Of a DNA stretch of 64,000 nucleotides, positions 15,826-45,536 are shown piece by piece. The DNA lies in contig NZ_CP123872.1 in the NCBI RefSeq assembly GCF_031598375.1, forward strand, positions 372,001 through 436,000, written 5' to 3'. The notes below the pieces were generated by a model that ran no database searches, was not told the origin of the DNA, and saw only the letters and a program-made list of their open reading frames with translations. Position numbers and translations under genes: made by a program. The stretch is from Temperatibacter marinus. GTDB taxonomy: Bacteria; Pseudomonadota; Alphaproteobacteria; Sphingomonadales; Kordiimonadaceae. Positions within the stretch are counted from its first letter, which is position 1. Every line of letters starts with the position of its first letter.

Positions 15826-17106
15826 TTACTTTTTATAAATTTTGCCTGTCTTCATCACAAAATCTACATCCATCAATTCTTTAATATCATTGAGAGGACT
15901 GCCATCTGTTGCAATAATATCCGCTTGCTTACCTACTTCAATGGTCCCTAAGCTTTTTGACATGCTTATCAAATCCGCTGCATTAATTGTTGCAGTGACT
16001 AAAATGTCCATCGGAGTCATTCCCGCCTCATTCATCAAGACTGCTTCGTAAGCATTCGTACCATGTGCAGAGACGCCGCTATCTGTCCCATAAGCAACTT
16101 TAACCCCTGCTTTATAAGCTTTCGCAAAATTGCCCTTCATGTCAGTGCCCACGCGAATGGCTTTTGCTTTAATAGCAGGTGACATGAAATTCGATTTCTC
16201 GGCCATATTTTTCACCGTGTCTCCGGCAATAAGTGTCGGCACAAGATAAGCGCCGGTTTTCTTAAACCATTTGTATGCCTCTGGTCCAGCATAAGTCCCA
16301 TGCTCTATGGAATGAACACCCGCCTTCAAAGCCGCGACGATACCGTCTTCCTGGTGGGCATGTGATGCAACTTTTCGGCCCATTCGTTTCGCAGCCAGAA
16401 CTACTTCATCCAGCTCGTCCATTTCCATTTGTTGCCCAGTACCTGTGGCACGGTCTGTCAAAACTCCGCCCGTGGATGTAATTTTTACAAGATCTGCACC
16501 ATATTTAATGGCATGCCGTGTTGCCCGACGGCAATCATAAGGCCCGTCGCAGATACGTTTTGTCGTCAGCATGTCCATCAATTCATGCTTGACGCCGCTC
16601 ACATCGGCATGGCCCCCTGTAATCCCAACACCGCCAGCTGCGATGATGCGCGGACCGTCAACCCATCCATAATTTATTGCATCGCGCAGAGCGTACATAT
16701 GCTGAGGGTTATTGCCAACATCTCTCACCGTGGTGAAACCCGCCATTAATGTTTTCATGCCATGGTGGATTGATTTCATGCTGGATAACTCGTCGGACAT
16801 TTTCAAGGCTTCACTATCATTCTTTGGACCTAGTTCACCCTGCAAATGCACGTGCATATCCATCAACCCTGGCATTACAAAACTATCTTTTAAATCAATG
16901 ATTTTAGCACCGTCCTCTGTATGATAGCCTGCCTTGACCGCACTAATTTTTCCGTCCTTTATGACGACAGACTGTTTTTCAAGAGCTGGCTTACCAGGCA
17001 CTGCTAATAATTTTCCTGCATGAATGATTTTCGTCTCTGCCAAAGCCGTCATTGATACGCTTGCAGAAAGCGCCGCAATGGCTGCTATTTTAAATAATGA
17101 TCTCAT
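15826..17106 (-). CDS. Secreted metal-dependent amidohydrolase (Xaa-Pro/imidazolonepropionase-like)
   Basis: 426 residues with signal peptide (FKIAAIAALSASVSMTALA). Amidohydrolase-superfamily metal site: HxH in MDMHVHLQ, Lys in GADLVKITSTGG (probably carboxylated), His in ASHAHQEDG and SIEHGTY, Asp in AYGTDSGVSAHG. The group includes periplasmic Xaa-Pro dipeptidases such as Sgx9260 and Cc2672-like enzymes, so cleavage of dipeptides with C-terminal Pro is plausible but unproven. The promoter and leader must overlap the 3' half of the ArfA-like frame just upstream. Confidence 0.88.
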   Translation of the reverse strand: MRSLFKIAAIAALSASVSMTALAETKIIHAGKLLAVPGKPALEKQSVVIKDGKISAVKAGYHTEDGAKIIDLKDSFVMPGLMDMHVHLQGELGPKNDSEALKMSDELSSMKSIHHGMKTLMAGFTTVRDVGNNPQHMYALRDAINYGWVDGPRIIAAGGVGITGGHADVSGVKHELMDMLTTKRICDGPYDCRRATRHAIKYGADLVKITSTGGVLTDRATGTGQQMEMDELDEVVLAAKRMGRKVASHAHQEDGIVAALKAGVHSIEHGTYAGPEAYKWFKKTGAYLVPTLIAGDTVKNMAEKSNFMSPAIKAKAIRVGTDMKGNFAKAYKAGVKVAYGTDSGVSAHGTNAYEAVLMNEAGMTPMDILVTATINAADLISMSKSLGTIEVGKQADIIATDGSPLNDIKELMDVDFVMKTGKIYKK

Positions 17107-17118
17107 GTCTTTTCTCCC

Positions 17119-17391
17119 TCAAGTTGCACTTAGTTTGACTGAGGTAAGTGTACGGGTCAAGAAATAGATAGTTTGACCGTTCTTAAAAAGGCTCTTAGTT
17201 GAAAATTTTTCGCGAGCGCACAAAAAATAAGACGCCAAAAGCTTCTTATGCTTTTGACGTCTCTTGTATGGGGCGCCCTTGCCTTTTTTTGAGGGAAGAA
17301 TTCGAGCTCTGTTCTGTTTTTCTTCCAGAGCTTTAGCAGCTAAATTCCTGATTTTGATCTCAGGAGCACTGCCTTTAATTTTTGCAGTCAT
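17119..17391 (-). CDS. arfA: ArfA-like alternative ribosome-rescue factor with internal terminator
   Basis: The open frame has 90 codons with a strong AAGGAG site 8 nt before the ATG. Residues 34-50 (SKKGKGAPYKRRQKHKK) match the basic KKGKGxYxRK core of ArfA, the factor that rescues ribosomes stalled on non-stop mRNA by recruiting RF2. Residues 13-30 would be the preceding helical segment. An intrinsic terminator lies inside the frame, its T-tract falling on codons 55-57, so the mRNA should end without a stop codon and the product be about 55 residues. This is the hallmark of ArfA genes, which are repressed by tmRNA tagging. The remaining 33 codons then overlap the leader of the next gene. 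No family search was possible; a basic unrelated peptide is the alternative. Confidence 0.72.
   Translation of the reverse strand: MTAKIKGSAPEIKIRNLAAKALEEKQNRARILPSKKGKGAPYKRRQKHKKLLASYFLCAREKFSTKSLFKNGQTIYFLTRTLTSVKLSAT
17222..17262 (-). terminator. Intrinsic terminator inside the ArfA-like reading frame
   Basis: Minus strand: AGACGTCAAAAGC, loop ATAAGAA, then GCTTTTGGCGTCT (12 pairs, one mismatch) followed directly by TATTTTTT. It lies over codons 44-57 of the 90-codon frame, not after its stop codon. Confidence 0.85.
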
Positions 17392-17443
17392 TTTCTCATC
17401 TCCTTTTGAGGAGCAGAGCTATACCAGATTAAGATGCAAAACG

Positions 17444-44090: not shown

Positions 44091-45272
44091 CTATGAGGAT
44101 AACTCAGCTTTTACTGTGGTATAGGCCCAATCTAGCCAAGGAAGAAGAGCTTCAACATCAGCACTGTCCACCGTAGAACCACACCAAATTCTCAGACCTG
44201 CCGGGGCATCACGGTATCCATTGATATCGTAAGCCACATCTTCGGCATCAAGCAAGGCAGAGAGCTTTTTAGGCACAGAAGCTGCAACATCAGCGTCAAG
44301 GGTGCTGATCCATGCGTCTTTGATTTTCAAGCAGACTGAGGTATGAGAACGAAGGGCTTTATCGGCCACGAGGAAAGCAGCCCAATCACTGTCTTCTATC
44401 CAATCCTCAATCACAGCAAGGCTATCTTGAGAGCGTTCTATTAAAAATTGTAGCCCCCCATTTGCCTCTGCCCATTCAAGAGCGTCAATATAATCCTCAA
44501 GAGCCAGCATAGAAGGAGTGTTGATGGTCGCTCCTTTAAAAATGCCACTGATCAACTTCCCTGCTTTTGTTAAGCGGAAAATTTTTGGCAAAGCGCGCCC
44601 AGCATCGAAATTCTCAAGACGCTTCACCGCACGTGGGCTGAGGATGATCATCCCGTGGGCCCCTTCAGAGCCTAAAACTTTTTGCCAGCTGTAGGTGACG
44701 ACATCTAACTTATCCCATGGTAAGTCCATAGCAAAAGCAGCAGATGTGGCATCGCAAATAGTCAACCCTTTACGATTCTCGCAAATCCAGTCTGCATTTG
44801 GCACCATGGCGCCAGAGGTCGTTCCGTTCCATGTAAAGACCACATCACGGTCCGTATTCACCTTTGAAAGGTCAGGAATTTCACCGTACTCAGCCTCATA
44901 AATATTCACATCATCCAGCTTGAGTTGTTTCACAACATCTGTGACCCAACCACTGCCAAAGCTTTCCCAAGCCAGCATATCAACGCCGCGCTCACCCAGC
45001 ATCGACCAAAGCGCCATCTCTACAGCACCTGTATCAGATCCAGGGACCAGTCCGATCACATAATCTTCTGGCAAACCAAGCAATTCATGAGATTTCGTCA
45101 AAGCATATTGCAAACGCTCTTTACCCACGCTAGAGCGATGAGAACGGCCAAGAGTTGCAGTTGAGAAATTTGTAAGGTCCCATCCTGGGCGTTTCGCGCA
45201 GGGCCCAGAAGAGAATTCTGGTCTTAGGGGTTTAACAACAGGCTTTGTTGCCTGAAGAGTAGAATCAGTCAT
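44091..45272 (-). CDS. serC: Phosphoserine aminotransferase (alphaproteobacterial type)
   Basis: PLP enzyme that transaminates 3-phosphohydroxypyruvate to phosphoserine. 393 residues from ATG 45272, chosen because GGAAGG lies 8 nt upstream and homologues begin near [20 protein letters not shown]; the frame is open to 45404 but overlaps the leader structure. [33 protein letters not shown] contains the PLP Lys (WQKVLG). First gene of the serC-serA-hisZ-purA operon. Confidence 0.95.
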
Positions 45273-45276
45273 TACA

Positions 45277-45313
45277 CTATCCTTCCAGATAGGTCGCACC
45301 TCGTTGGGGAGGT
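45277..45313 (-). ncRNA. serC-type leader: two tandem hairpins before serC
   Basis: On the minus strand ACCTC/GAGGT (hairpin 1, loop CCCAAC) is followed after a few bases by CTATC/GATAG (hairpin 2), the latter enclosing the GGAAGG Shine-Dalgarno right before the serC ATG. This is the layout I recall for the alphaproteobacterial serC motif in Rfam, thought to control translation. The match is from memory of the architecture, not an alignment. Confidence 0.5.
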
Positions 45314-45536
45314 ATGGCCCAAAGTATATATGCTCTGTCGTTGACCTTTTTCGCGCAGACAGACCACGGTGAAACTGGATATTGGATTTTGGCCGCACCA
45401 GCATTACCCCTGTTTGGTTTTTTGACCTCGGTCGGGAATACCTGCCCTTAAAATACGGATTCGAAGGAAGATGTCAAATACTCATCCTGAAAATCTTCAG
45501 CTTGCTCTTGACTATTTTTTCTGCCACTAGTTTTCT

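Follow-up and report, generated by a model that had tools for sequence, protein, structure and literature searches.

A probable arfA ribosome-rescue gene with an in-frame transcription terminator in the alphaproteobacterium Temperatibacter marinus

Introduction

The available text of PMC8012679 places ArfA in only some beta- and gammaproteobacteria. It describes a stem-loop within the gene, which yields a non-stop arfA mRNA either by termination or through RNase III, and gives the loss in Escherichia coli ArfA as 17-18 of 72 residues. Two surveys, as far as their accessible portions state, leave the Alphaproteobacteria out of this distribution. PMC11633108 used a DNA profile, reports arfA in 0 of 2,376 alphaproteobacterial genomes, and confines ArfA to beta- and gammaproteobacteria plus 10 Bacillus species. 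PMC10070815 applied the Pfam model to proteomes, states that Alphaproteobacteria have no arfA, and infers that the gene arose after the proteobacterial classes split. ArfA is also mentioned, in the available parts of the respective papers, in a Citromicrobium phage (PMC8953757) and in a pelagiphage (PMC12753301). In the accessible portions of the literature on ArfA, no paper that we found describes an arfA with an in-frame terminator on an alphaproteobacterial chromosome.

We describe here a locus of Temperatibacter marinus that an earlier, sequence-only reading had interpreted as an ArfA-like gene built to make a non-stop mRNA. That reading took ArfA to be described chiefly in beta- and gammaproteobacteria, which agrees with the available text of PMC8012679, PMC10070815 and PMC11633108.

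Results

Organization of the locus

The window is the whole 64,000-nucleotide stretch of T. marinus DNA that was analysed (contig NZ_CP123872.1, positions 372,001 to 436,000), and all coordinates below refer to it. The candidate arfA frame lies on the minus strand at 17119..17391 and comprises 90 codons from an ATG start, with a good ribosome-binding site in the form of a Shine-Dalgarno sequence, AAGGAG (17400..17405, minus strand), seen by inspection 8 nt ahead of the ATG. Its upstream neighbour on the same strand is a tryptophan halogenase gene (PF04820), and a downstream amidohydrolase gene (PF01979; 15826..17106, minus strand) has its ATG at 17106, with twelve bases between this codon and the end of the frame. 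As the sequence-only reading proposed, the frame carries an ArfA-type basic core, SKKGKGAPYKRRQKHKK, at residues 34-50 (17242..17292, minus strand), which aligns with other alphaproteobacterial ArfA sequences.

An inverted repeat follows within the frame, extending from codon 43 to codon 55 (17229..17263, minus strand), the 5' arm of which overlaps the RRQKHKK codons. The internal terminator that had been claimed is thus present in the frame, although its stem has 14 pairs (2 of the 14 are G-U) and not the 12 first counted. The T-tract, ATTTTTTGTG (17219..17228, minus strand), coincides with codons 55-57, and a further 33 codons stay open beyond it, both as originally described. We would expect the mRNA 3' end at codons 55-57 and a natural product of about 55-57 residues; the phantom coding tail past the terminator (17119..17220, minus strand) is open and would be translated only rarely. 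Tails past the core differ among homologues.

The fold is strong. A 61-nt stretch containing the hairpin has a predicted free energy of -22.6 kcal/mol (z -4.9), with 0 of 200 shuffles as good, and at the core the best 45-nt window reaches z -8.3 or -7.4 with two random seeds; none of 251 other blocks taken from the arfA locus folds as well as this best core window. A terminator-like site alone is weak evidence, because 1801 bases hold four such sites where 1.4 are expected, and the fold is stronger evidence than the terminator-site match alone. The feature associated with non-stop arfA mRNA, an in-frame hairpin, is present in the window as read from the DNA alone. At the arfA locus no Rfam match attains the gathering score of its family. 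Elsewhere in the window a serC leader (RF00517) was matched at 45272-45324 on the minus strand, with 56.2 bits.

Relationship of the protein to ArfA

The best Pfam match of the window protein is ArfA (PF03889), at 16.6 bits and below the cut-off of 25.5. DUF7230 (PF23876) scores 14.6 bits against a cut-off of 27, and we rejected it as the family of this protein since the score lies under that cut-off. No ArfA match was returned by an NCBIfam scan, and the window protein by itself matched no PDB chain at E <= 10. We therefore built a leave-one-out profile from nine other alphaproteobacterial sequences, with the window protein excluded, and scored residues 1-57; residue shuffles served as the control because composition is a concern in so basic a protein. 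Residues 1-57 score 27.1 bits, and none of 5000 shuffles exceeds 10.2. When the row from G005 (genomes are labelled G and loci L, the window's genome being G000) was also removed, the score was 25.5 bits with shuffles reaching at most 14.4. The full frame ranks first among the 1445 frames of the window under the leave-one-out profile (25.4 bits, the runner-up having 5.0). The sequence-only reading had named a profile match to an unrelated family as an objection, and none was found: ArfA is the top Pfam match, albeit below cut-off, and a ten-row alphaproteobacterial profile with no gammaproteobacterial rows matches six distinct PDB sequences at E <= 1, all of them ArfA (best E 4.7e-11). The interpretation given by the sequence-only reading is supported.

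These comparisons bear on the possibility that the frame is spurious and encloses the terminator of the upstream halogenase only by chance. The frame is indeed short, and the halogenase gene itself ends with a weak terminator-like site (17465-17444), such that RNA data could mislead via either site. Such an accident is nonetheless hardly credible in view of the leave-one-out homology, the good Shine-Dalgarno sequence, and the syntenic G005 ArfA, which scores above the Pfam cut-off.

The KKGKG-Y-x-R basic core is present as KKGKGAPYKRRQKH, with one inserted residue: the window protein has an extra residue (APY) after KGKG. The FRQRV-type stretch ahead of the core is absent and the protein reads KQNRARI there, whereas FRQR is kept in rows such as G208, G375 and G252. 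We do not regard FRQRV as strictly defining, because the syntenic G005 protein, which has LFQQKKV, passes the Pfam cut-off. One could argue from the unconserved FRQRV stretch and the inserted residue that the product, a small and basic peptide of ArfA ancestry, still binds the ribosome but has lost the function of RF2-dependent rescue. We regard this as quite improbable, since the core, the length and the in-frame terminator have all been kept and the genome has no detectable ArfB.

Relatives in the family and class

Among 98 genomes searched, the window's own included, PF03889 is matched above its cut-off in one, G005 (31.6 bits), which belongs to the same family. The G005 arfA precedes the same amidohydrolase gene (76% identical; locus L002), and has its own in-frame hairpin in the same place, with z -2.4 over 131 nt and best windows of z -7.0 and -6.1. 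A third genome of the family, G009, encodes an ArfA-like protein that lacks KGKG and lies in a different neighbourhood, again with a strong hairpin in frame. For the window protein the 98 genomes yielded no close orthologue, the window's own genome being the only one matched. A further match, in G015, has an E-value of 0.0055.

Across 385 genomes of the class, eight pass the PF03889 cut-off and 27 match the alphaproteobacterial profile (A2) at E <= 0.001. Nine of the ten rows of A2 come from those 27 matches and a tenth match (G468) is nearly identical to one of the rows; ten of the 27 E-values are therefore in-sample and 17 are not. Homologues occur in several other alphaproteobacterial families. 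Several copies are in genomes assembled as one contig or on a contig exceeding 1 megabase (G000, G009, G194, G468 and G428), and this argues against contamination. In two single-contig genomes of 1.2 Mb, G194 and G468 (loci L053 and L054), the ArfA-like protein is short, with a normal stop right after the core and no strong hairpin.

Hairpins at homologous loci

We scored the best 45-nt window starting between -12 and +21 of the Y-x-R codons at 27 loci, these being the 27 class genomes minus G425 (its protein is the same as that of G250) and G174 and G380 (core incomplete), plus G005, G009 and G047. At the core, 12 of 27 loci reach z <= -3, compared with 64 of 1080 places drawn at random from the same loci, and 6 of 27 reach z <= -5, compared with 4 of 1080; related pairs among the 27 loci make binomial p values too small. 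The G250 hairpin ends past the stop codon, which leaves 11 loci where a hairpin at z <= -3 is in frame; these include two more genomes of the window's family. Homologues with a conserved internal hairpin, the lack of which the sequence-only reading had taken as an argument against itself, are thus found. G371 is borderline, with z -2.8 and -4.2 in two runs.

An in-frame hairpin is not universal, because 16 of the 27 loci have none at z <= -3; in most of these 16 a normal stop codon comes shortly after the core. The distance from core to stop is longer in loci with z <= -3 (rank test p 3e-4, with G250 included and related pairs kept). By eye, a T-tract follows the stem in G000, G219, G322, G428, G317 and G165, as well as at an in-frame terminator of G208 that lies farther down and outside the hairpin rule. 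Stems lacking a clear T-tract were seen in G005, G009, G434, G371, G448 and G130, as might be expected of RNase III sites.

An alternative explanation accepts the protein as ArfA and takes the hairpin to be an ordinary terminator or attenuator ahead of the amidohydrolase gene, the active product arising by read-through with no tmRNA loop. Terminators between genes are common, and the hairpin is 122 bases ahead of the amidohydrolase start. A close amidohydrolase gene lies within about 1.5 kb at only 2 of 18 loci searched (the window and G005), however, and 9 of the 16 loci without one still have an in-frame hairpin with z <= -3, which argues that the hairpin goes with arfA and not with the neighbour. 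Its position relative to the core is kept where neighbouring genes differ, and a stop codon ahead of the hairpin would suffice for plain insulation. We consider this explanation unlikely.

tmRNA, SmpB and ArfB

The alpha_tmRNA model was matched in 11 of 11 carriers tested and SmpB in 13 of 13, the window's genome included in both sets. The tmRNA tag of the window's genome is ANDNDVEFAVAA. ARAGORN read a tag at three of four tmRNA loci and missed that of G005, where the Rfam model matches at E 6.1e-69. ArfB was not found at E <= 1e-15 in G000, G005 or G009. It is present in 71 of the 98 genomes searched (69 over cut-off) and matched in 18 of 29 genomes of the window's family, with G013 and G028 of these below cut-off; given 18 of 29, the chance that all three arfA-bearing genomes lack ArfB is about 0.045, which is weak. 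Eight other genomes of the family have neither ArfA nor ArfB. Class-wide, ArfB occurs in 6 of 27 ArfA carriers and in 122 of 358 other genomes, so that strict replacement of ArfB by ArfA is unsupported and the exclusion link between the two over the class is weak.

Copies on phages and plasmids, and the origin of the gene

An annotated arfA is present on an Erythrobacter aureus plasmid, and a gene of an Ochrobactrum phage bears an ArfA note. The plasmid and alphaphage copies resemble the window gene in having a KGKG- or KGRG-type core. Hairpins were read in seven copies, from six of nine phage records and one of three plasmid records matched. An in-frame hairpin at the core is seen in Citromicrobium phage vB_CbaS-RXM (L205, z -3.2) and in Erythrobacter phage XM05 (L208, z -4.1), the latter differing from the window in that a stop follows directly after the hairpin; in the copies at L202, L203, L204, L206 and L207, no in-frame hairpin reaches z <= -3. 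As a set the phage hairpins are not significant, because 30 of 210 random places in the phage and plasmid loci reach z <= -3. PHROG 20887, a phage protein family with no assigned function, matches ArfA of G005 (E 0.00046) and of the Citromicrobium phage (E 0.0019), and from these similarities it may be a phage ArfA.

We also considered a phage or plasmid origin for the window copy and rejected it, the window protein having no tblastn match at E <= 1 in either collection. Horizontal arrival together with the amidohydrolase gene was rejected as well: the best 80 of 500 amidohydrolase loci, mostly from gammaproteobacteria, show no convincing ArfA in the available flanks (best E 0.37), some loci ending early at contig ends. 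Among these 80 loci, gammaproteobacterial amidohydrolases reach up to 75% identity, compared with 66% for Kordiimonas gwangyangensis, a pattern that hints at horizontal transfer of the amidohydrolase.

Homologues without KGKG and DUF7230

In a set of 13 alphaproteobacterial ArfA-like proteins (A3), six rows match DUF7230 and 10 match ArfA at E <= 0.1. The G317 protein (L111) passes the DUF7230 cut-off (28.5 bits, cut-off 27) and its gene has an in-frame terminator just past the core; the proteins of G390 (L108) and G047 (L032) also pass this cut-off and resemble alphaproteobacterial ArfA. Unlike the window protein, the DUF7230 members examined lack KGKG, and the genes of G047 and G390 end in normal stops, no hairpin being in frame. 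Profiles of the KGKG-bearing and of the KGKG-less alphaproteobacterial ArfA-like proteins align by hhalign with a probability of 97.7%, the profiles being short, and six KGKG-less proteins each score higher than 5000 of their own shuffles under the KGKG-type profile.

A Pfam scan of the six hairpin-bearing KGKG-less proteins (G434, G448, G317, G165, G009 and G130) gave matches below cut-off to both ArfA and DUF7230 for G434 and G448, and no Pfam match for G009 and G130. The G165 protein has a weak ArfA match and scores just above the cut-off for Rep3_C (PF21205; 21.2 bits, cut-off 21.1), and may be something other than ArfA. DUF7230 may be a relative of ArfA, to judge from these similarities; our literature search returned no paper on it.

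Discussion

We conclude that the window frame is very probably a true arfA, the product of which is made from a non-stop mRNA and controlled by tmRNA. In the mechanism that we propose, RNA polymerase would halt at the in-frame terminator, such that most of the mRNA ends at codons 55-57 and has no stop codon. A ribosome reaching this end would normally be cleared by tmRNA-SmpB, the peptide presumably being tagged for proteolysis, and little ArfA would accumulate. Away from the ribosome, most of ArfA would be expected to be unfolded. Should trans-translation fail or be overloaded, a peptide of 55-57 residues would be released, whose basic tail could bind the empty mRNA channel of stalled ribosomes; by recruiting RF2, ArfA would then bring about release of the nascent chain.

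The finding of homologues across several families of Alphaproteobacteria, built on the same logic of an in-frame hairpin, calls into question the dating of arfA to a time after the proteobacterial classes split. Earlier surveys may have missed these genes owing to their use of DNA profiles and to short genes left unannotated. An RF2-dependent back-up in alphaproteobacteria that lack ArfB becomes a testable proposition. A broader reading, which we offer tentatively and hold at a little short of an even chance, is that there is an overlooked, broad alphaproteobacterial ArfA superfamily including KGKG-less proteins and part of DUF7230, that many of its genes have a terminator or an RNase III-type hairpin in frame just past the core and are hence tmRNA-controlled, and that it stands in for ArfB in some lineages. 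If this superfamily exists, DUF7230, now of unknown function, would consist of ribosome-rescue factors; the present observations in any case give a lead on that family.

Among known systems, arfA of E. coli is one of the closest to the window gene. The KKGKG core is at residues 33-37 in E. coli ArfA and at 35-39 in the window protein, and in both genes a stem-loop lies where it gives, or here is expected to give, a non-stop mRNA, with a product of about 55 residues in E. coli (the stem-loop being described in the available text of PMC8012679) and of 55-57 expected here. The two differ in that the window protein is alphaproteobacterial, has an extra residue after KGKG and does not keep FRQRV, and in that the window hairpin has a clear T-tract. 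Bacillus subtilis BrfA is similar in design, with an in-frame intrinsic terminator, a non-stop mRNA and tmRNA control, as given in the accessible portion of PMC6881298. That source takes BrfA and ArfA as evolutionarily unrelated, whereas PMC11633108, in its available text, calls BrfA an ArfA homologue; the likeness of BrfA to the window gene that we draw is one of description and not of sequence.
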